A stretch of DNA of 39,868 bases from an uncultured Aquiluna sp. (GTDB lineage: Bacteria; Actinomycetota; Actinomycetes; Actinomycetales; Microbacteriaceae), in NCBI GenBank assembly GCA_913057795.1, contig CAJXOD010000010.1, positions 1 to 39,868 on the forward strand. The letters are read 5' to 3'. The position numbers and the translations under genes were made by a program. Below are positions 5,620 to 23,263 of this stretch, piece after piece (within the stretch, counting starts at the first letter, position 1; each line of letters opens with the position of its first letter). Below the pieces are notes generated by a model. The model was not told the DNA's origin. It saw nothing but the letters and a program-made list of their open reading frames with translations, and searched no databases.

Positions 5620-8505
5620 ATGGTTATCGGTAGAGTCACTTCACTAAGTGACATAGTTCGACTGGGTTTTGAGTCGCTGAGCGTTGCCAGGGAAAACTTG
5701 GTTGAACTAGAGAGTGTTCTTGGCTCAAGCTACCAGCGGTGCGAATCTGCTTTTGAAACGTCTGCGTCTCCGGATAGGGCTCTGACGCAACTCCTGGAGC
5801 TTTCAAGGAACCACCCGAAACTTATTCAGAAGGCGCTTGCTGAGTCGTCAGGCCCGAAGCGGTTAATAGCAATTCTCGGTGCATCTGACGGTTTGGCAGA
5901 ATATCTCACGCGTCATCCTTCTGAACTGTCACTTTTTAGCAAGGCTCAATCACTTCCATCAACTTTTTCTCTCAATCGTGAATCAAGACTCGATCTTCGT
6001 GTGTCATATCGCAGCATGCTTCTAGCAATAGCCGATTGGGACTTGGGGCAGTCAAATCCCTCTGACGGTGTCGTTGCGGTGACTCAGGCCTTGAGTAGGC
6101 TCGCCGATGCAGCCTTGGATGCAGCGTTGTCGGTGGCAAGGTCGGAATTACTGGCAGACGGAAGAATTTCCCAAGAAAAATCTGAGAATACTAAATTATC
6201 GATTATCGCGATGGGCAAAACAGGTGCGGATGAACTGAACTACGTGAGCGACGTTGATGTCATTTATGTTGCTGGGGGTCCAGAGGAATATGCGATTGCA
6301 ACGGCGACTCAATTGGCGCAGAGGTTGGGTTTGGTTATCAACGAGGCAGCTATGGAACCTGGACTTTGGGAGGTTGATCCGAACCTTAGGCCCGAGGGTA
6401 AAAATGGGGCGCTTGTCAGAACGGTTGCCGCTCATGCGGCCCACTACAACAAATGGGCTGAACCTTGGGAGTTCCAGGCGCTACTAAAGGCCAGGTTCGC
6501 AGCTGGTGACCAAGAGCTTGGAGAGCAATACCTTCTGGAGGTGAAGTCCCAAATTTGGGGTGACAGAGAGCGCTCAAATCTGGTTCAGCACGCCAGGCAA
6601 ATGCGTAAGCGTGTCATTGAACAAATCCCCTCGGAGGAGAAAGAGCTCAACATAAAGCTAGGCCGCGGAGGACTTCGCGATGTCGAATTCACCATTCAGC
6701 TTCTTCAGCTGGTTCATGGCGTTGTCGACGAGACCCTTCGAGACTCGGGCACATTTCCTGCAATTCACGCTCTAGCCGAGGCCGGGCTTTTGGGCCGAGA
6801 TGACGCGTTGGAGCTGCAGAGCCAATATCGCTTGCTTCGGGTTATCGAGCACCGGCTTCAATTGGTAAAGCTTCGAAGGGCTCATTTGGTGCCAACCGAT
6901 TCTTCAGATCTCAGAAGAATTGCGCGTGGTGTCAATCCTCGTCTTAGCGCCGAAGATCTTCGCGTGATTTGGGCGAACAGTCGCCAGGAGATTGCAAGTC
7001 TCCACGATACGATTTTTTTCCGACCCTTATTGGCGGCAACGGCCGCGCTTTCGCCCGGTGAAATTTCGCTAACCGCCAGCGAGACTGAGAGCCGTCTAGT
7101 TTCTCTTGGATTCACAGATCCCAAGGGCGCCATGCGCCACCTAAAGGCCTTGAGTCTAGGGATGTCACGCGGTGCTACTATTCAACGCTCTCTTCTTCCG
7201 GTCCTGCTGCGCTGGATGGCCGAAGGTATGAATCCGGATGGAGCTTTATTGAGCTTCAGAAGGCTCAGCGAATTGTTGGGTGATAAGCACTGGTTCCTAA
7301 AGATGCTTCGTGACTCTTCGGGTGCCGCAGAGCGGCTTATGCAAGCACTGTCGAACTCCGTCTACATTTCGCGACTGCTTGAGTACACGCCGGAATCAAC
7401 TGCCTGGTTTGCGGACGAATCCAAGCTTCAACCCACTAACAGGACCTCTTTAGAGGCTGAGGTGGCATCATTTTTGGCCAGGAACTTAGGGTTTGAAAAA
7501 GCCGCCGAAGGACTGAAGTTTATCCGCCGTAGGGAGTTCCTAAGGATTGCTATTGGGTCGACTCTCGGCAATCTAAAGGTGCGTCAAGTTGCGATGGCGC
7601 TCAGTGAAGTCACGGAGATTTATCTAGGGTCAATGCTTATCATTGCTGGGCGCAAGTCCAACATTGACCTAGACGTGAGCATCGTGGCAATGGGTCGCCT
7701 TGGAGGTCAAGAACTTGGCTTTGGTTCAGACGCTGATGTGATGCTTGTCTACAGCGACGATGGTCCGAATGCTCAGAGCATGGCCGAAGTTCTTACCGGG
7801 GAATTTATAGGGCTAGTCAAGGACCCAATTTTAGAGTTTGAGTTAGATCTCGACTTACGCCCCGAAGGTAAAAATGGCCCGCGCATCAAATCACTCAACG
7901 CATACGAGGGTTACTACCAAAAGTGGGCGGAGACCTGGGAGTTTCAAGCTCTTCTTCGCGCACGTCCTATGTTCGGATCTCAAGGCCTAAGAGATGCATT
8001 CACAAACCTCATCGACAAGTATCGCTATCCTGAAGAGCTCTCAAATAAGCAGCTTGTGTCTGTGCGTGTGGTCAAGGCGAGAGTTGAAAACGAAAGGCTT
8101 CCGAAAGGTATCGTCGCAAATAGACACCTGAAGCTTGGACCTGGCGCAATTAGTGATGTGGAATGGCTTATCCAGTTGATGCAGTTGAGATACGCCGGGA
8201 ACAATCCCGAGCTGCGAAGCCTCACGACACTTGACACTTTGGCATCTCTAGTCAAGCTGGGACACATTGACGACGCTGATTCGCACGTGTTGGAGGATGC
8301 ATGGATTATGGCGAGTCGAGTGCGCAGTGCCCAAGTTCTTGCCTTGGATAAGGCATCCGACGAGCTTCCGATTGACAGGAATAAGCTTGAGGCGCTCGCA
8401 CGAATTTTAGAGTTCGAGCCTGGCTCAGCTACCGAGCTTGAAGAGCGATATCTCGCTGTGACGAGGCGCTCAAGAGCAGTTTTTCAGAAGTTATTTTTGG
8501 AATAG
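5620..8505 (+). CDS. glnE: Bifunctional glutamine synthetase adenylyltransferase/deadenylase
   Basis: Attaches and removes AMP on glutamine synthetase in response to nitrogen status. The 961-residue protein contains the expected two nucleotidyltransferase halves. The N-terminal deadenylylase has GKTGADELNYVSDVDVIYV near residues 197-215, and the C-terminal adenylylase has GRLGGQELGFGSDADVMLVY near 690-710; both keep the paired aspartates. The segments LDPNLRPEGKNG (N half) and LDLRPEGKNGPR (C half) are the matching substrate motifs of each half. ATG at 5620 follows the glnA2 TAA directly with no independent ribosome site, indicating coupling. Its only likely target in the window is the convergent glnA1, which carries the tyrosine acceptor. 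Confidence 0.95.
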   Translation: MVIGRVTSLSDIVRLGFESLSVARENLVELESVLGSSYQRCESAFETSASPDRALTQLLELSRNHPKLIQKALAESSGPKRLIAILGASDGLAEYLTRHPSELSLFSKAQSLPSTFSLNRESRLDLRVSYRSMLLAIADWDLGQSNPSDGVVAVTQALSRLADAALDAALSVARSELLADGRISQEKSENTKLSIIAMGKTGADELNYVSDVDVIYVAGGPEEYAIATATQLAQRLGLVINEAAMEPGLWEVDPNLRPEGKNGALVRTVAAHAAHYNKWAEPWEFQALLKARFAAGDQELGEQYLLEVKSQIWGDRERSNLVQHARQMRKRVIEQIPSEEKELNIKLGRGGLRDVEFTIQLLQLVHGVVDETLRDSGTFPAIHALAEAGLLGRDDALELQSQYRLLRVIEHRLQLVKLRRAHLVPTDSSDLRRIARGVNPRLSAEDLRVIWANSRQEIASLHDTIFFRPLLAATAALSPGEISLTASETESRLVSLGFTDPKGAMRHLKALSLGMSRGATIQRSLLPVLLRWMAEGMNPDGALLSFRRLSELLGDKHWFLKMLRDSSGAAERLMQALSNSVYISRLLEYTPESTAWFADESKLQPTNRTSLEAEVASFLARNLGFEKAAEGLKFIRRREFLRIAIGSTLGNLKVRQVAMALSEVTEIYLGSMLIIAGRKSNIDLDVSIVAMGRLGGQELGFGSDADVMLVYSDDGPNAQSMAEVLTGEFIGLVKDPILEFELDLDLRPEGKNGPRIKSLNAYEGYYQKWAETWEFQALLRARPMFGSQGLRDAFTNLIDKYRYPEELSNKQLVSVRVVKARVENERLPKGIVANRHLKLGPGAISDVEWLIQLMQLRYAGNNPELRSLTTLDTLASLVKLGHIDDADSHVLEDAWIMASRVRSAQVLALDKASDELPIDRNKLEALARILEFEPGSATELEERYLAVTRRSRAVFQKLFLE

Positions 8506-8540
8506 AAAAAGCCGGGTGGAAAATCCACCCGGCTTTTTCT
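8504..8540. terminator. Bidirectional rho-independent terminator between glnE and glnA1
   Basis: A perfect 17-bp inverted repeat (8504-8520 and 8524-8540) with a three-base AAA loop. The core is GCCGGGTGGA against TCCACCCGGC, flanked by an A-run on the left and a T-run on the right, so RNA read from either strand has a GC-rich stem followed by uridines. The left arm begins inside the glnE stop codon and the right arm ends 14 bases before the glnA1 stop, so it serves both convergent genes. Confidence 0.96.
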
Positions 8541-8554
8541 GATGCAGATAAGTC

Positions 8555-9979
8555 TTACACTCCGTAGTAAAGCTCGAACTCGTAAGGATGAGGTCGCTGC
8601 GCCATTGGCTTTATCTCTTTCTCGCGCTTGTAGTCGATCCAGTTCTCAATAAGGTCCTTTGTGAAGACGTTGCCTTCCATGAGGTAGTCGTGATCCGCCT
8701 CTAGCGCCTTCAAGACAGACTCTAGATCCGCAGGAACTTGAGGGATCATCTTGGCTTCCTCTGGAGGTAGCTCGTAAAGATCCTTATCAACTGGCTCATG
8801 CGGTTCGATACGGTTTTTAATTCCATCCAGGCCAGCCATTAGCTGCGCGGCGAAAGCCAAGTAAGGGTTTCCAGAACTATCTGGAGCCCTGAACTCGATT
8901 CGCTTAGCCTTTGGGTTCGAACCAGTCATAGGGATACGAATGGCGGCAGATCGGTTTCCGGCGGAGTACACAAGGTTTACTGGAGCCTCAAAGCCGGGTA
9001 CCAAGCGATGGTATGAGTTGATAGAAGGGTTGGTGAAGGCAAGCAAGCTTGGTGCGTGCTTCAAGATTCCACCGATGTACCAACGGGCTAGATCGGAGAG
9101 GGAACCGTAGCCAGCCTCGTCATAAAACAGCGGCTTGCCGTCTTTCCAGAGCGACTGGTGAACGTGCATGCCAGACCCGTTGTCGTTGAACAATGGCTTG
9201 GGCATGAAGGTTGCTGTCTTGCCGTACTGATGAGCAACATTTTTCACGATGTACTTGAACTTTAGAAGATCGTCCGCGGACTTCACTAAAGTGTCAAAGC
9301 GATAGTTGATTTCACATTGTCCAGCAGTTCCGACTTCGTGGTGGCTTCGCTCAACACTCAATCCTGCGTCTTCTAGCTCCAACACGATTGCGTCGCGGAT
9401 GTCGGCCAAGTGGTCCACGGGGGAAACTGGGAAATAGCCACCCTTATAAGGAGTCTTGTTTCCTAGGTTTCCACCTTCTTCTTCCCTAGCGGAGTTCCAA
9501 GCGCCTTCGATCGAGTCAACGATGTGGAAAGCGGTGTTTGACTTCACTTCATAGCGAACGTCGTCAAAAATGAAAAACTCAGCCTCAGGGGCGAAAAACG
9601 CGGTGTCGGCGATTCCGGTCGACTGCAGATAGCGCTCGGCCTTGTGAGCTACCTGGCGTGGGTCGCGGTGGTACAGCTCACCATTCCGCGGGTTGTAGAT
9701 GTCAAAGTTCATGATCAGAGTCTTTTCGACTCGGAATGGGTCTTCCCACGCTGTTGTGACATCCGGAATCAGCTGCATGTCACTCTCGTGAATGGAAGCG
9801 AATCCGCGAATTGAGGAGGCGTCAAACAGCTGTCCAATTGCAAAAAATTCTTCATCAATTTGAGAAACTGGCAGGTTGAAGTGCTGTTGCACTCCGGGCA
9901 TATCAGTAAACCGAACGTCCACAAACTTGATGTTGTGTTCCTTGATGTACTGCAGCGCCTCTGAGGCTGTTTTGAACAT
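8555..9979 (-). CDS. glnA: Glutamine synthetase, type I (main ammonia-assimilating enzyme)
   Basis: Makes glutamine from glutamate, ammonia and ATP; a cytoplasmic dodecamer. The 474-residue protein has FDASSIRGF (52-60), metal ligands in PEAEFFIFD (131-139), the ATP loop [17 protein letters not shown] (261-277), NRSAAIRIP (342-350) and [17 protein letters not shown] (360-376). The adenylylation loop [10 protein letters not shown] is intact with the acceptor tyrosine Y402, so this is the regulated GlnA1-type (I-beta) enzyme. ATG at 9979 is preceded by GAGAGG seven bases upstream. The 78-base gap from the DUF4191 gene suggests its own promoter, and a GlnR-like half-box lies there. It ends convergently against glnE with a shared terminator. 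The adjacent RDD-family membrane gene seen in many Actinobacteria is absent here. Confidence 0.97.
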
Positions 9980-16788: not shown

Positions 16789-17694
16789 GTGAACCCGCTA
16801 TACGAAGAATTTACACATGCCGAGATTCCATCTGGACTGCCGATGGTTGCGTTGATATCTGGGTTTAGCGATTCGGGGTCGACCATTTCTCAGCTGTCTG
16901 ATCACTTTTTTTCGGAACTGAATCACGAATTGGTGCTGAGCTTTGACAACGATGAGTTTTTAGATTATCGATCTAGGCGACCGGCTCTCTTTTTTGAAAA
17001 AGATCACATTGAGTCTTACGAGCCACCGTCGCTATCAGTCCATCTCGTGTTCGACGAAGCACAACAACCCTTTTTGCTTTTGGAGGGCTACGAGCCAGAT
17101 TTGAAGTGGGAGGCATTCGCTGCCAGCCTCCTTGAAATTATTCAACGCCTCCAGGTGTCAAATTTCACGTGGGTTCATTCCATTCCATTCCCGATTCCTC
17201 ATACAAGACCCGTTGGTGTGACCGTTTCTGGGAACCGTAAGGACATGATCGAGAGATTTTCAGAGTGGAAACCGCAGACTCAGGTTCCAGGTAATGTGAC
17301 ACACCTTCTTGAATTTCGGTTGAGCGCTCAGAATGTGAACACTGCTGGGTTTGTGCTTTTGGTTCCTCACTATTTAGCTGACAACGAGGTGCCAAATGCT
17401 GCGATTACCGGACTTGAGCTAATTAGCGCCGCGACCGGGCTGGTATTCCCATCGGATCAGCTAAGGGACGATGCGGGAAAGTTTGAAGCCAAGGTCAAGG
17501 GCCAGATTGAGGACAACCCGGAATTAAGTAAATTGGTGCAAACTCTTGAAGCTGGTTACGCAAGCGGTGGCTCTGGTCCGTCGAGGGCTCCAATTAGTAA
17601 ACCTTCGGGGGAGCCTCGCAGTGTTGACGAGCTCACGGAAGAGCTAGAGAATTACCTTTCGACTATGAGAAAAAATACTGACACCGAGGAATAA
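16789..17694 (+). CDS. PAC2 (proteasome assembly chaperone-like) family protein
   Basis: A 301-residue soluble protein with the PAC2 fold signatures MVALISGFSDSGSTISQLSDHFF (20-42), then an acidic LVLSFDNDEFLDYRSRRP and LEGYEPDLKWEAF (96-108). The C-terminal part carries an acidic helix ending SVDELTEELENYLSTMRK. In Actinobacteria this family is widespread and often lies just upstream of sigA, as here, but its molecular role is unknown; the name comes from a distant eukaryotic proteasome-assembly chaperone. Translation likely begins at GTG 16789; a TACTCT element six bases upstream suggests a leaderless or nearly leaderless transcript. It diverges from pepA across 32 bases. Confidence 0.85.
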   Translation: MNPLYEEFTHAEIPSGLPMVALISGFSDSGSTISQLSDHFFSELNHELVLSFDNDEFLDYRSRRPALFFEKDHIESYEPPSLSVHLVFDEAQQPFLLLEGYEPDLKWEAFAASLLEIIQRLQVSNFTWVHSIPFPIPHTRPVGVTVSGNRKDMIERFSEWKPQTQVPGNVTHLLEFRLSAQNVNTAGFVLLVPHYLADNEVPNAAITGLELISAATGLVFPSDQLRDDAGKFEAKVKGQIEDNPELSKLVQTLEAGYASGGSGPSRAPISKPSGEPRSVDELTEELENYLSTMRKNTDTEE

Positions 17695-17828: not shown

Positions 17829-19067
17829 GTGTCAAAGGCGAAAGCCAAGGAAATCACACCAGAAGGTGTCGCTAAGGCTGAGCCTAAGAAGGCAACGGTC
17901 AAGCCAGCTAAGGCTGCTGCAAAGACGCCTACCACCGCACCAGCTAAGGCTGCTGTGAAGAAGACGGCTGCGAAGCCAAGGGCTAAGAAGGATGACTCCG
18001 TGGAGGATATTGTCTCGGAGGCGACTTCAGCTGTTGATCTGAGCCTGGATGCCGACTTAGATCCAATAACTGCAGCCATTGAGCTACCTAAGGGTGCTCT
18101 GGTCATCAACGATGACGAAGACGACATTCCAGTTCAAAATCTTGCAATCACCGGAGCTACGGCCGATCCTGTCAAGGATTACCTGAAGCAGATCGGTAAA
18201 GTCGCTCTGCTAAACGCGGAGTTGGAAGTTGAACTCGCGAAGCGTATCGAGGCCGGCTTGTTCGCCGAGGATAAACTTGCGACCGAAAGCAAGCTCGCGC
18301 CTGCTGATCGCAGAGACTTGAACTGGGTCGTTAAGGACGGAAAGCGCTCAAAGTCTCACCTTTTGGAGGCCAACCTTCGTCTGGTCGTCTCACTGGCGAA
18401 GCGCTATACCGGACGAGGCATGCAGTTCCTGGATCTAATTCAAGAGGGAAACCTCGGCTTGATTCGTGCAGTAGAGAAATTCGACTACACCAAGGGCTTT
18501 AAGTTCTCCACCTACGCGACTTGGTGGATCAGGCAAGCAATTACTCGCGCGATGGCAGATCAGGCGCGCACTATTCGTATCCCAGTTCACATGGTTGAGG
18601 TAATCAACAAGCTGGCACGAGTTCAGCGTCAGTTGCTTCAAGACCTTGGTAGAGAACCGACTCCAGATGAATTGGCCGCTGAATTAGACATGACGCCTGA
18701 AAAGGTTGTAGAGGTCCAAAAGTACGGCAGGGAGCCAATCTCACTTTCTACTCCTTTGGGAGAGGATGGCGACAGCGAATTCGGTGACCTGATTGAGGAC
18801 ACCGAGGCAGTTGTGCCAGCCGACGCTGTTGGTTTCACAATGCTTCAACAGGAACTAGAGCGGGTATTGGACAGCTTGCATCCCCGTGAGGCTGGGGTTA
18901 TTCGCTCTCGATTCGGTCTGGGTGATGGAGTGCAGATGACTCTTGACCAGATCGGTGAAAAATTTGGCGTGACTAGAGAGCGCATCAGGCAAATCGAATC
19001 CAAGACGATGTCGAAGCTTCGACACCCTTCTAGATCACAACTTCTTCGCGACTACCTGGACGGTTAA
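17829..19067 (+). CDS. sigA: Primary (housekeeping) RNA polymerase sigma factor
   Basis: Group 1 sigma-70 factor directing RNA polymerase to most promoters. The 412 residues contain a Lys/Ala-rich N-terminal tail (1-55), an acidic stretch (56-100), region 1.2 ([16 protein letters not shown], 113-128), region 2 ([16 protein letters not shown] through [26 protein letters not shown], 178-255), region 3 (258-325) and region 4 with the -35-recognition helix ([20 protein letters not shown], 381-400). GTG at 17829 is taken as the start; the ribosome site is weak (GAGG about 15 bases away), which with the hairpin upstream suggests regulated translation. The stop is immediately followed by the murT-like ATG. 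Confidence 0.97.
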
Positions 19068-20270
19068 ATGCGTGCCATCCTGGCGGTCTTGATCGGGAAG
19101 TTTTTGCGTTTTCTCGTTCGTTTAGTCCGGCCAGGTGGAGGCTCAGCACTTCCAGGAGTAGTAGCAAATAAATTAGACCCAAATCTTCTCTCGAATGCTC
19201 TTCGCGCTCTGGATCATGGCCTGGTTGTCGTATCCGGTTCAGCGGGAAAGTCCTCGACAACTAGCTACTTAGTCACCTTGCTGGAAACACACGGTCTTCG
19301 CGTCTTTACTAATAGCAGCACAGCAAACATTAGGCAGGGCCTTGTTGCGTCGGTGTTGAAGCAGAGTAATTGGCGTGGACAGTTGGACTGTGACATAGCG
19401 GTGTTGGAATTAGACGAGGGTCACGGCGCAGTCCTAGCTAGGGAACTCGAGGTTCGATTAGCGGTACTGACCAACGTGCTTTCGGATCAACTAGATAGAT
19501 TCAGTGACCCTGATGATGTCATTGCAATGCTGAAACAAATAGGTTCGGCAGCAAAGGCAGTTGTCCTAAACGTGGATGATAAGAATCTGGCTCAGTTGGA
19601 ATTCGAAATCCCTGTCTTTGGGTTCGGGGTGTCGAGGGGGACAGTCAACACTCCAAAGGCGGTTTACGCCTTGAATTTCGGTTCTCACCCGACTATTCCG
19701 GTTTTCGCCGAAGTCGGGCATGGCGGCATTGTCTTGCACTCAGAGGCTGAGACTAGATTTGAAACAACGAGTTTGCCAGAGCATCAGGCGCTGAACCTGT
19801 CGGCCGCTGTGGCCGCCTTGTATCAATTGATTGAGCCGTCCGAGAGCATTATTCGTGCTGTACTCATGGAACTAAAACCAGTCTTTGCTCGAAACGAAAG
19901 AGTTGAAGTTGCCGGCGTCGACGTGACTATCCGCTTGGTTCAGAATCCGACTAGTTTCCAGTTGAACCTCGATGAGCTGTTGCCGGACCAGACTCCACTC
20001 ATGTTTATGGCCGGGCGAGACATTCATGATCCGAGTTGGCTGTGGACAGTCGATTTTTCAAGAGTGAAAAGGGTAGACATCGTTGGAGGTTTCAACGCGC
20101 ATGAACTGTCTCTGCGATTGGCCTTTGCCGGCGTTGAGGTTGGCGCTGTGATTCAAGATGCTAGCGCTGCGGCAGACAGTTTCCTAGCGCTATCAGGGAC
20201 GGGGCATACTGTCTTGTTTAGCGCAGATGCAATGCGTCGCGTGAGAAGACATTGGGGGCTAGCCAAGTGA
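19068..20270 (+). CDS. murT: MurT-like Mur ligase, divergent, lacking the zinc ribbon
   Basis: Related to MurT, the ATP-dependent subunit that activates the D-Glu alpha-carboxyl of lipid II for amidation. The 400 residues show an N-terminal hydrophobic stretch, a P-loop (SGSAGKSSTT, 56-65, altered from the usual GTNGKTTT), TNSSTANIRQGL (81-92), AVLELDEGHGAVL (111-123), VVLNVDDKNLA (165-175) and a C-terminal DUF1727-like domain (NPTSF, then AGRDIHDPSWLW 315-326). Known MurT proteins carry two CxxC pairs forming a zinc ribbon after the VLNxDD segment. Here residues 170-235 contain no cysteine, and the whole protein has one (C108). ATG at 19068 abuts the sigA stop; the 3' end overlaps gatD by four bases (GTGA). 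Family assignment is firm; lipid II amidation is doubtful. Confidence 0.85.
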   Translation: MRAILAVLIGKFLRFLVRLVRPGGGSALPGVVANKLDPNLLSNALRALDHGLVVVSGSAGKSSTTSYLVTLLETHGLRVFTNSSTANIRQGLVASVLKQSNWRGQLDCDIAVLELDEGHGAVLARELEVRLAVLTNVLSDQLDRFSDPDDVIAMLKQIGSAAKAVVLNVDDKNLAQLEFEIPVFGFGVSRGTVNTPKAVYALNFGSHPTIPVFAEVGHGGIVLHSEAETRFETTSLPEHQALNLSAAVAALYQLIEPSESIIRAVLMELKPVFARNERVEVAGVDVTIRLVQNPTSFQLNLDELLPDQTPLMFMAGRDIHDPSWLWTVDFSRVKRVDIVGGFNAHELSLRLAFAGVEVGAVIQDASAAADSFLALSGTGHTVLFSADAMRRVRRHWGLAK

Positions 20271-20839
20271 CTCGTTTTTTTAGTTTTCATAAAGAATATT
20301 TTGACAACAACGGTGATCAGGGGAACTTATCGGTCCTGAAGTTCTTTCTAGGCCAGCAATCCGTCTCATTTGATGAGGTTAGTGAATTGGCATCGGCTGA
20401 CTTTGTCCTAGTGGGCGATGCAAGTCGCGCGGCACTTCGAGAATACGGAAAAGAGCTTTTAGATTTAGCCCCAGCCCTTCAGGCCAGACACGCAAATGGA
20501 CTGCCAACTCTGGTTATTGGTTCAAGCTATGAGCTTCTTGCCTCTGAGGTGGATTGGCTTGAAACTCCAAAACGGGGATCTGTCGTCAGCGAGTTCAGAA
20601 CTCTAGTTACAGATGAGGCCGGACCGGTTCTCGGTTATCGAAATAGCTCGATACTGGACCTAGATTTCGTTCGGAGCGGCGACTTTATTGCGACAACGCT
20701 GTTCGGGCCTATTCTGGCTAAGAACCCAACTCTGCTGGACCAGATGCTTCTTGCCTGCGGTGGCACCTCGGCCGATTGGGAACCGAAGATGAAGAACTGG
20801 GTCGAAAGCATTAGAGAACTGGCGCCGACTCATCACTAA
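20267..20839 (+). CDS. gatD: GatD-like glutamine amidotransferase without catalytic residues
   Basis: Homologous to GatD, the glutaminase partner of MurT. Shared features are NNGDQGNLSVL (14-24), the ADFVLVGDASR strand, GLPTLVIGSSYELL (78-91), VLGYRNSS (121-128) and LFGPILAKNP (145-154). In Staphylococcus aureus GatD the matching segments read LTICGGYQFLG with nucleophile C94 and LHGPILPKN with H189. Here the cysteine is G85 and the histidine is F146; the protein's only cysteine is C164, far from the site. At 190 residues it is about 50 shorter than S. aureus GatD. GTG at 20267 is preferred over TTG 20252 because it makes a GTGA overlap with the murT stop behind a GGGGG ribosome site. It is unlikely to hydrolyse glutamine; the reading frame is intact, so it is not a decayed gene. 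Confidence 0.85.
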   Translation: MTRFFSFHKEYFDNNGDQGNLSVLKFFLGQQSVSFDEVSELASADFVLVGDASRAALREYGKELLDLAPALQARHANGLPTLVIGSSYELLASEVDWLETPKRGSVVSEFRTLVTDEAGPVLGYRNSSILDLDFVRSGDFIATTLFGPILAKNPTLLDQMLLACGGTSADWEPKMKNWVESIRELAPTHH

Positions 20840-21208: not shown

Positions 21209-23263
21209 GTGGATGATTACTCAGCGAGACACCTTTCAGTCCTTGAGGGACTTGAGGCAGTTAGAAAAAGACCAGGCATGTATATCGGTTCGACCGACGG
21301 CCGCGGGCTCATGCACTGTCTATGGGAAATAATTGACAACTCTGTCGACGAAGCTCTTGCTGGACACGGCAAGTCAATCGGTGTTGTTATTCATACCGAC
21401 GGTTCTATCACTGTTCAAGATGACGGCCGGGGAGTGCCGGTCGACATAGAACCTAGAACTGGACTAACGGGAGTAGAGGTCGTCTTTACCAAGCTGCACG
21501 CCGGAGGTAAATTTGGTGGCGGTTCTTATGGGGCCTCTGGTGGATTGCACGGGGTTGGCGCATCCGTAGTTAATGCTTTGAGCTCCCGTCTTGACGTTGA
21601 GGTGGACCGCGCCGGTCAAACTTGGGCCATGTCCTTCCACAGGGGCGAACCGGGATTGTTCGCGGGTGACGGGCCAGAGGCGGACTTTGCACCTTTTGTT
21701 GAACAGAGCGAGCTTCAGGTGATTGGCAAGGTTTCCAAGTCGAAGACCGGCACCAGGGTCCGGTATTGGCCAGACGTCCAAATCTTTGAGCCGGGTGCGG
21801 ATTTTCAGATGCAGGATCTAGAGGGCCGTCTAAGACAGACCGCTTTTCTGGTTCCTGGATTAGTCCTCAGCGTTCACGATGAACTCTCGAATATCAGCCA
21901 AGAGTTTGTGTTCGAGGGCGGCATTACCGAATACGTTGAGTATCTAGCGGCCGATGGACCAGTCTTGGCCACTCGCCGCATCCAGGAAACGACAAGTTTT
22001 CGCGAGACGGTTCCGGTATTAGACGAAAACTCCGGCTCGATGAAGAGCAAAGAGGTCGAGCGACAATGTGTTGTGGACATCGCCTTACGATGGGGAAGTG
22101 GTTTTGATACGAGGGTCAAGTCTTTTGTAAACATAATCTCGACGCCCAAGGGCGGATCTCACTTGACCGGTTTCGAACAAGCCTTACTTAAGTCATTTAG
22201 GACTGCGATCGAGGCAAATGCGAGACGACTAAAGGCAACCTCTCTAAAGATTGAGCGCGACGATGTCATGGCGGGCCTGACTGCGGTTGTGTCAGTCAGT
22301 TTTCCGGAGCCACAGTTCGAAGGTCAGACAAAGGAGACGCTGGGTACTCCTGCCATAAAGGCCATCGTGGCTAACTCGGTCGCTAAATGGGCCGATGAGC
22401 TTCTTGCCGGCAAGATCCGTGGCACAAAAGCCGAAGTTGATGCTCTCCTAGACAAAGTAGTCAGCGAGGCCAAGACGCGGATTAGTGCGCGGAGCTTGAA
22501 GGACACACAGCGCAGAAAAAACGCCCTTGAATCGTCATCGCTTCCTAGCAAGCTTGTGGATTGTCGCGGCAGCGCCACCGTTGGTTCCGAGCTTTTCATC
22601 GTTGAGGGTGACAGTGCCTTGGGAACAGCTAAACTTGCGCGCGACTCGGCCTTTCAGGCATTACTTCCTATTCGTGGGAAAATCCTAAACGTCCAGAAGG
22701 CGTCTCTGTCCGACATGCTGTCGAATGCCGAATGTGCAGCAATCATTCAGGTTCTCGGTGCGGGATCTGGTCGAACTTTCGATCTAGAGCAGGTTCGATA
22801 CGAAAAAATTATTCTTATGAGCGATGCTGATGTGGATGGTGCACACATTCGCACATTGCTTCTAACGCTATTTTTCCGCTACATGCGACCACTGGTCGAA
22901 GCCGGCAGGGTTTACGCTGCTGTTCCTCCATTGCATCGGGTGGAAACTGCGGGCCGTAATAAAGAGGTCATCTACACATACTCACAGCAAGAGTTGACTG
23001 ACCTTCTAAAAAGTCTGGAGAAGGCCGGCAAGACGTATAAGCAGCCTATTCAGCGATATAAGGGCCTCGGCGAGATGGATGCTGATCAGCTTGCTGAGAC
23101 GACGATGCAACCCTCGAACCGCATGCTACGACGCATCACTGCCGTCGACGCAGCAGCCGGAGAGCGAACCTTTGAGTTGCTCATGGGTAATGAAGTGGCT
23201 CCTAGGCGCGACTTTATCGTTGACTCGGCGGACGATTTTGACAGAGAGAAAATCGACGCTTAG
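21209..23263 (+). CDS. parE: DNA topoisomerase IV subunit B (ParE/GyrB-type ATPase)
   Basis: ATPase subunit of a type IIA topoisomerase. The 684 residues have the GHKL ATP site (EIIDNSVDEALAG, 40-52; VQDDGRGVPV; GGLHGVGASVVNAL), a transducer domain and the TOPRIM domain with IVEGDSALGTAK near 462 and MSDADVDGAHIRTL near 540, ending in YKGLGEMDADQL. The EGDSALG variant (GyrB normally has EGDSAGG), the separation of the A and B genes into convergent units, and the position near sigA all match the ParE of Streptomyces and relatives rather than GyrB. Start is GTG 21209. The last four bases overlap parC on the opposite strand. Assignment to topoisomerase IV rather than gyrase is inference; a separate gyrBA near the replication origin would confirm it. 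Confidence 0.88.
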   Translation: MDDYSARHLSVLEGLEAVRKRPGMYIGSTDGRGLMHCLWEIIDNSVDEALAGHGKSIGVVIHTDGSITVQDDGRGVPVDIEPRTGLTGVEVVFTKLHAGGKFGGGSYGASGGLHGVGASVVNALSSRLDVEVDRAGQTWAMSFHRGEPGLFAGDGPEADFAPFVEQSELQVIGKVSKSKTGTRVRYWPDVQIFEPGADFQMQDLEGRLRQTAFLVPGLVLSVHDELSNISQEFVFEGGITEYVEYLAADGPVLATRRIQETTSFRETVPVLDENSGSMKSKEVERQCVVDIALRWGSGFDTRVKSFVNIISTPKGGSHLTGFEQALLKSFRTAIEANARRLKATSLKIERDDVMAGLTAVVSVSFPEPQFEGQTKETLGTPAIKAIVANSVAKWADELLAGKIRGTKAEVDALLDKVVSEAKTRISARSLKDTQRRKNALESSSLPSKLVDCRGSATVGSELFIVEGDSALGTAKLARDSAFQALLPIRGKILNVQKASLSDMLSNAECAAIIQVLGAGSGRTFDLEQVRYEKIILMSDADVDGAHIRTLLLTLFFRYMRPLVEAGRVYAAVPPLHRVETAGRNKEVIYTYSQQELTDLLKSLEKAGKTYKQPIQRYKGLGEMDADQLAETTMQPSNRMLRRITAVDAAAGERTFELLMGNEVAPRRDFIVDSADDFDREKIDA

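Follow-up and report, generated by a model that had tools for sequence, protein, structure and literature searches.

A MurT-GatD-like pair without glutaminase residues beside sigA in Microbacteriaceae: a candidate enzyme for the group B peptidoglycan bridge

In the 39,868-nucleotide stretch of DNA analysed here (the window; contig CAJXOD010000010.1 of GenBank assembly GCA_913057795.1, from an uncultured Aquiluna sp. of the Microbacteriaceae), the gene of the primary sigma factor, sigA, is directly followed by two genes, here called murT* and gatD*, which are related to those of the lipid II isoglutaminyl synthase MurT-GatD. Studied MurTs act on the alpha-carboxyl group of D-Glu, and group B cell walls attach their cross-bridge to the same carboxyl. 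A GatD without its catalytic Cys (pseudo-GatD) beside sigA is a family-wide pattern in Microbacteriaceae, not a local oddity, and, as the new observation of this work, the MurT/pseudo-GatD pair alternates with an unrelated CofE-like ligase accompanied by an ATP-grasp protein. Since the ammonia-producing half of the pair looks dead, and relatives carry an unrelated amide-forming pair at the same site, murT*-gatD* probably fastens the cross-bridge amino acid of group B walls. To our knowledge, the enzyme loading the bridge residue onto D-Glu in these walls is unassigned; in a literature search that left out subscription papers, no link of MurT, GatD and Microbacteri- was found, and no group B bridge-loading enzyme was named in titles or abstracts.

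The ligase and its partner

The murT* protein matches the Pfam families Mur_ligase_M (49.8 bits) and MurT_C (31.2 bits), each above the cut-off. Its top NCBIfam match is MurT (110.9 bits, far below the 800-bit equivalog cut-off), and the closest solved structures are MurT-type chains (6fqb first, with 7q8e and 6gs2). The P-loop GSAGKS, the Asp-Glu pair for Mg2+ and the Asp (in D-P-S-W) at the position of D349 in Staphylococcus aureus MurT are all kept; D349 is the Asp of a proposed triad, and the D349N variant is severely impaired in amidation (PMC6113224; here and below, published data come from excerpts of the papers cited). KNP is replaced by QNP, and no zinc-ribbon CxxC was found in murT* or in the other sigA-adjacent MurTs of its class (class 2, defined below) that were inspected; a Cys4 zinc ribbon occurs only in a subset of MurTs (PMC6113224). 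The intact ligase fold described in an earlier note on this DNA is thus supported at the level of motifs. The search of this genome with Pfam MurT_C, which bears on the second canonical pair considered in that note, matched murT* alone; because the model is strong on canonical MurTs but failed to detect 25 divergent MurTs elsewhere, a second, divergent copy may still be present. Separately, GATase_3 matches occur elsewhere in this genome.

No Pfam family matched the gatD* protein at E<=1; it reaches 22 bits with NCBIfam GatD (cut-off 450 bits) and E ~0.05 with GatD in the PDB. The assignment as a GatD homologue follows from gene order and from iterated profiles, which recovered both MurT and GatD proteins at 91/91 Microbacteriaceae loci. 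In the alignment, the catalytic Cys (C94 in S. aureus) is replaced by Gly85 and the catalytic His (H189) by Phe146, in agreement with the earlier note, which saw a partner unable to make ammonia; the His is retained in many class 2 relatives. Both C94G and C94S abolish the activity of S. aureus GatD (PMC6113224). The products of gatD* and its nearest relatives fall ~30-60 residues short of the length of most class 2 GatDs and lack a stretch that contains a conserved Arg and GNG. The median pairwise ratio of nonsynonymous to synonymous substitution rates (dN/dS, own Nei-Gojobori script, at high synonymous divergence) is 0.16 for GatD of 12 Cryobacterium and 0.45 for 30 Microbacterium, with 0.15 and 0.21, respectively, for MurT. 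The GatD* looks to be under purifying selection and seems to be used.

The pair resembles MurT-GatD of S. aureus and Streptococcus pneumoniae in gene order, in the Mur-ligase middle and C-terminal domains, in the P-loop, Mg2+ pair and D349 equivalent, and in its GatD-like partner. It differs from this isoglutaminyl synthase in the absence of the GatD Cys and His and of the zinc ribbon, in QNP for KNP, in its place beside sigA and in its alternation with another ligase module. The murT* protein shares a ligase superfamily with MurC-MurF and the pseudomurein pMur ligases, in which an amino acid attacks the acyl phosphate; these possess a complete N-terminal substrate domain and lack a GatD partner. 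In group A walls, the cross-bridge residue is added by FemXAB and the D-Asp ligase Aslfm, enzymes that target the residue 3 amino group rather than the D-Glu alpha-carboxyl.

The sigA locus across Microbacteriaceae

A subset of a larger group, 199 family genomes in all, was searched with Pfam MurT_C (137 matches); a family alignment was then run against 80 of them, 62 without a match and 18 whose sole pair is catalytic-type, and gave 46 matches. The GatDs of 91 loci fall into three classes: class 1 (n = 22) has both Cys and His (22/22), class 2 (n = 59) has G, A, S, T or N in place of Cys, and class 3 (n = 10) carries His where the Cys would be and Ile or Leu instead of the His. Classes 2 and 3 were first labelled by the GatD residue, so that the lack of Cys in class 2 is true by definition, and it is the counts of position and of the MurT tree that carry weight. 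The pair follows sigA on the same strand in 56/59 class 2 loci (the exceptions are L038, L068 and L069) and in 10/10 class 3 loci, with a gap of at most 0.7 kb, above 0.1 kb in three cases; in the window, where the stop codon of sigA abuts the ATG of murT*, the gap is zero, so the tight linkage to sigA pointed out in the earlier note is confirmed and extended. No sigA was found near the class 1 pairs (0/22, within the visible 0.2-0.6 kb upstream). All GatDs encoded beside sigA lack the Cys, at 66/66 inspected family loci, 66/66 loci of named relatives and 30/30 loci of genus g85, three sets which share some genomes.

In the MurT tree (quick method, midpoint root, some long branches; L038, L069 and L290 set apart as class 4), class 2 forms one clade (78 rows; Shimodaira-Hasegawa-like approximate likelihood ratio test, 100), into which murT* falls, beside canonical MurTs, and class 3 forms a separate clade (12 rows, 98). 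Two separate MurT lineages at the sigA locus share the loss of the GatD Cys. The D349-equivalent Asp is present in 56/56 sigA-adjacent class 2 MurTs. The class 3 pairs (L029-L036, L042, L056) occupy the same sigA site with their own MurT lineage, mostly with a zinc ribbon, and with a GatD that carries HNA-EVLG. Cys and His are kept in 40/40 outgroup GatDs, which come from genomes of unspecified wall type in nine further families of the order (the 30 best-scoring and 10 mostly lower-scoring of 92 matches; L306 was cut and gave no GatD); beyond the order, the comparison comprised only 14 control genomes. A species tree from sigA was dropped because its resolution was too poor.

Of the 199 genomes, 141 have a class 2 or 3 MurT (with GatD read in 66 and by model score only in 75), 18 have class 1 only, 27 have a strong CofE match without MurT, 3 are odd (G005, G053, G123), 9 have neither module (seven gave no match, G049 and G119 a weak partial one; G022 and G146 are 87% complete) and 1 has fragments (G099). 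The 18 class-1-only genomes and the 9 with neither module make up 27/199 that have neither a class 2 or 3 MurT nor CofE. The class 2 pair 3' of sigA in G015 (L047), presumably Tropheryma whipplei Twist, has Ser at the Cys position.

The alternative occupant of the site, a CofE-like gene, was found 3' of sigA in 16/20 sigA regions from MurT-less or class-1-only genomes (absent in G019, G051, G049 and G014). Its protein matches PF01996 (F420_ligase) with 47.9 bits, and a protein encoded nearby, mostly on the opposite strand, matches PF14397 (ATPgrasp_ST) with 94.8 bits; in locus L163, for example, the CofE-like gene (7267-7953, + strand) directly follows sigA and is faced by the ATPgrasp_ST gene (8028-8927, - strand). 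In 26/26 regions measured (10 of them named) the CofE-like gene follows sigA with a gap of 2-185 bp, and once of 1,444 bp. At E<=1e-20 it is present in 30/199 genomes, namely the 27 strong cases, all without a MurT match, then G053 and G123, in both of which CofE lies ahead of an odd MurT and a pseudo-GatD away from sigA, and G147 (weak). Strong CofE occurs in none of the 141 genomes with a class 2 or 3 MurT. The ATP-grasp protein (E<1e-80) is present in 34/199 genomes, including 25/27 CofE genomes.

The alternation is strict within genus g85 (247 genomes), which we infer to be Microbacterium: CofE is present in 206 genomes, the MurT/pseudo-GatD pair in 39, both in none and neither in 2 (G651, G733). 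By chance, 32.5 genomes with both would be expected, although a P value for the zero overlap is only indicative, given the shared ancestry of these genomes. The ATP-grasp protein is found in 205 genomes, i.e. the CofE set minus G567, and in 0/39 of those with the pair. All of 30 CofE and 30 MurT loci have sigA within 1.5 kb, and 30/30 GatDs have Gly at the Cys position. Both kinds of module occur in different species of nine GTDB genera (g7, g9, g13, g57, g74, g76, g79, g84, g85), and the exchange is thus recurrent.

Named relatives were represented by the best 80 of 471 confirmed candidates from a PAC2-family scan. Their sigA is followed by MurT and a Cys-less GatD in 66 cases (64 class 2, 2 class 3) and by CofE and ATP-grasp in 10, with 4 loci cut or unresolved. 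The class 2 genera include Clavibacter, Rathayibacter, Leifsonia, Subtercola, Agreia, Herbiconiux, Frigoribacterium, Cryobacterium, Agromyces, Glaciihabitans, Homoserinimonas and Amnibacterium; CofE is found, among others, in five Salinibacterium (one a metagenome-assembled genome, MAG), Lacisediminihabitans, a Rhodoglobus MAG and Cryobacterium sp. BB307. Class 2 pairs are present in Salinibacterium soli and in another Rhodoglobus MAG. In a whole-genome MurT search of 40 named genomes, 31 had MurT, and the other 9 are precisely the genomes in which CofE follows sigA (CofE being read in the 31 at the sigA locus, not genome-wide).

In genus g53 (L069:4214-7166, - strand; L290:3816-6755, - strand) CofE, MurT and pseudo-GatD form a tight row away from sigA; this MurT has a zinc ribbon and represents a separate lineage. 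A fusion of CofE and MurT in L069 was rejected, since the two genes are distinct and overlap in different frames. Open frames resembling alanine racemase, often in twos, occur close to the ligase module in 51/160 loci searched, with either ligase type (e.g. L053:6150-7933, - strand; L192:15805-17669, + strand; L157:4272-6304, - strand), and are candidates for D-amino acid production. A record titled Acidobacteria (L221) carries a Microbacteriaceae-type locus, and in Lacisediminihabitans changchengi the same locus is found on two scaffolds (L252, L253).

Wall types, proposed reaction and alternatives

In genome G010, taken as Rhodoluna lacicola, the pair is of class 2, with the Cys replaced by Ala; the wall of this species yields the peptides Mur-Gly, Gly-D-Glu and D-Ala-D-Dab (Dab or DAB, diaminobutyric acid) and is of type B10 (PMC4156110). 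Type B2beta is reported for Frigoribacterium (D-Lys) and Homoserinimonas (D-Orn, ornithine), B2gamma for Cryobacterium (DAB) and B10 for Glaciihabitans (DAB) (PMC7033078). Further B2gamma walls are those of Agreia (L-DAB and D-Orn) and Subtercola (DAB) (PMC5945732), of Herbiconiux (D- and L-DAB; PMC10011130) and, as published, of Agromyces aureus (written D-Glu-L-Dab) and Clavibacter. At the genus level, the class 2 genera of these excerpts are all labelled B2 or B10 and have a diamino acid in common, in the D form where the bridge residue is stated. A split of subclasses 2a and 2b by diamino acid was rejected, DAB and ornithine types being found in both (PMC7033078, PMC5945732). For the correlation of pseudo-GatD genotype with wall chemistry raised in the earlier note, the observations are the B-type labels of class 2 genera, the Cys in 40/40 outgroup GatDs and the 27/199 family genomes with neither a class 2 or 3 MurT nor CofE.

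The murT*-gatD* pair is probably, judging from its sequence, a lipid II modifying amino-acid ligase for the D-Glu alpha-carboxyl, with a D-diamino acid as the probable nucleophile. MurT* would use ATP, as MurT does, to convert this carboxyl to an acyl phosphate, and GatD*, making no ammonia, would have a structural role or position the substrate. The acyl phosphate would then be attacked by an amino acid, with a D-diamino acid (D-Dab, D-Orn or D-Lys, depending on the lineage) as the likeliest candidate, giving a branch later cross-linked to D-Ala4, i.e. the group B bridge. An amino-acid ligase appears to be the simplest account, since the residues for ATP use are kept, the partner would give no ammonia, the MurT acceptor is the carboxyl that bears the group B bridge, and the pair alternates with the CofE module. 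In relatives, the CofE-like ligase and the ATP-grasp protein would probably do the equivalent job, perhaps by making a two-residue bridge (e.g. Gly first, diamino acid second), an idea drawn from Microbacterium chemistry and from the counting of ligases. The earlier note had left the nucleophile as glycine or a diamino acid; the D-diamino acid fits better, and glycine as the only nucleophile was rejected because class 2 genera report D-diamino acid bridges.

More broadly, we tentatively read the sigA locus of Microbacteriaceae as an exchangeable cassette site setting the bridge chemistry of group B walls, either through a MurT/dead-GatD turned to a D-diamino acid (in two lineages) or through a two-step CofE and ATP-grasp route, an account we find plausible yet just short of probable. 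If true, it would supply the enzyme for the missing step in group B wall synthesis, with an amidating enzyme that became an amino-acid ligase through loss of its ammonia supply, and would mean that inside single genera, between close species, a core wall enzyme has been exchanged for a non-homologous one; the wall type would be predictable from genes, and the enzyme directly testable.

Several findings count against the ligase reading or limit its reach. Only a catalytic-type pair is held by 18/199 family genomes, and 9/199 show neither ligase module, so other solutions exist in the family, and the pseudo pair is one of several if those 18 and 9 genomes are group B. Group B species with a catalytic GatD as the only pair were named as a refutation in the earlier note; a universal bridge enzyme is probably refuted by the 18, if their walls are of group B, and the earlier proposal of a repurposed pair stands in a narrower form, with no second canonical-type MurT found here, the Cys loss beside sigA, the alternation and the D-Dab wall of one pseudo-GatD species in its favour. 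In 3/5 Leifsonia genomes searched (L. virtsii, L. aquatica and L. shinshuensis; L287, L288, L289) a second, catalytic MurT-GatD pair accompanies the pseudo pair. All ten class 3 MurTs have Asn (9) or Met (1) at D349, and class 3 pairs may work differently. The ATP-grasp protein is also present in 7/12 class 3 genomes and in both genomes of genus g18, and the CofE gene of G094 (g13) is not beside sigA. Most of the wall types are taken from descriptions of genera rather than from the genomes studied here; those reported for CofE-type genera, 'Lys, Orn, B' for Salinibacterium and 'DAB, B1alpha' for Lacisediminihabitans, neither prove nor exclude the Gly idea (PMC7033078), and the ornithine of M. 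caowuchunii (class 2, by inferred identity) does not discriminate (PMC10978784).

A different wall step for such an amino-acid ligase (glycine as the first bridge residue, another stem carboxyl or decoration of a wall polymer) is unlikely, though to be taken seriously: the nucleophile and acceptor given above are themselves proposals, and subclasses 2a and 2b do not separate by the reported diamino acid (PMC7033078, PMC5945732), but several class 2 genera have reported or implied bridges of a single D-diamino acid, the ATP-grasp protein, as candidate second ligase, is found in 0/39 class 2 genomes of g85, and the studied MurTs act on the D-Glu alpha-carboxyl. That the pair still amidates with free ammonia, giving plain isoglutamine without need of a glutaminase, would agree with the retained P-loop, Mg2+ site and D349 equivalent of sigA-adjacent class 2 MurTs and with the apparent purifying selection on GatD. 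We regard it as distinctly improbable, since the pair alternates with CofE-like and ATP-grasp folds, known for adding amino acids, and since the bridge residue of Rhodoluna lacicola is D-Dab, on the D-Glu alpha-carboxyl in a B-type wall (PMC4156110). Gly or Ser at the Cys also abolishes the S. aureus activity, though that was not a test with free ammonia (PMC6113224).

The alternation would lose its meaning if the CofE-like gene were simply an F420 ligase that alternates with MurT* by coincidence. The CofE/FbiB F420-0:gamma-glutamyl ligase indeed belongs to the same Pfam family as the alternative occupant (47.9 bits to F420_ligase) and has no relation to MurT-GatD; unlike it, however, the site occupant sits after sigA with a near-constant ATPgrasp_ST partner. 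With CofE following sigA in 26/26 regions and lying at most 1.5 kb from it at 30/30 g85 loci, and with no MurT* overlap in 247 genomes against the 32.5 expected, such a coincidence is very unlikely. Even less credible is a decaying MurT-GatD relic retained by linkage to sigA, with no enzymatic role: the window GatD is short and motif-poor, but the dN/dS values (0.16 and 0.45 for GatD, 0.15 and 0.21 for MurT), the one clade kept across the family and the 245/247 g85 genomes that retain this pair or the other module all speak for use.

Features of the window

The coordinates of the locus are collected in Table 1. The start of gatD* overlaps the stop of murT*.

Table 1. Genes and motifs at the sigA locus of the window
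Feature	Position	Strand	Basis or remark
PAC2-family gene 5' of sigA	16789..17694	+	PF09754, 167 bits; family used as probe for named relatives
sigA, primary sigma factor	17829..19067	+	Sigma70 regions 1.2 and 2-4; directly upstream of murT*
murT*, MurT-type Mur ligase (400 aa), proposed amino-acid ligase	19068..20270	+	Mur_ligase_M, MurT_C; class 2 clade
P-loop GSAGKS of murT*	19236..19253	+	motif reading
ELDEGH, acidic Mg2+-binding pair of murT*	19407..19424	+	cf. S. pneumoniae MurT Asp112/Glu113 (PMC6085368)
DIHDPSW of murT*; Asp preceding PSW equivalent to S. aureus MurT D349	20019..20039	+	PMC6113224
gatD*, GatD homologue (190 aa, GTG start) without glutaminase residues	20267..20839	+	iterated profiles, gene order, alignment
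Gly85 codon of gatD*, catalytic Cys position	20519..20521	+	alignment
Phe146 codon of gatD*, catalytic His position	20702..20704	+	alignment
GyrB/ParE-type gene 3' of murT*-gatD*	21209..23263	+	DNA_gyraseB; common downstream neighbour

Between gatD* and parE lies a small conserved open frame on the - strand, from ~20904, which faces gatD* and has 33 family members in the neighbourhood comparison.

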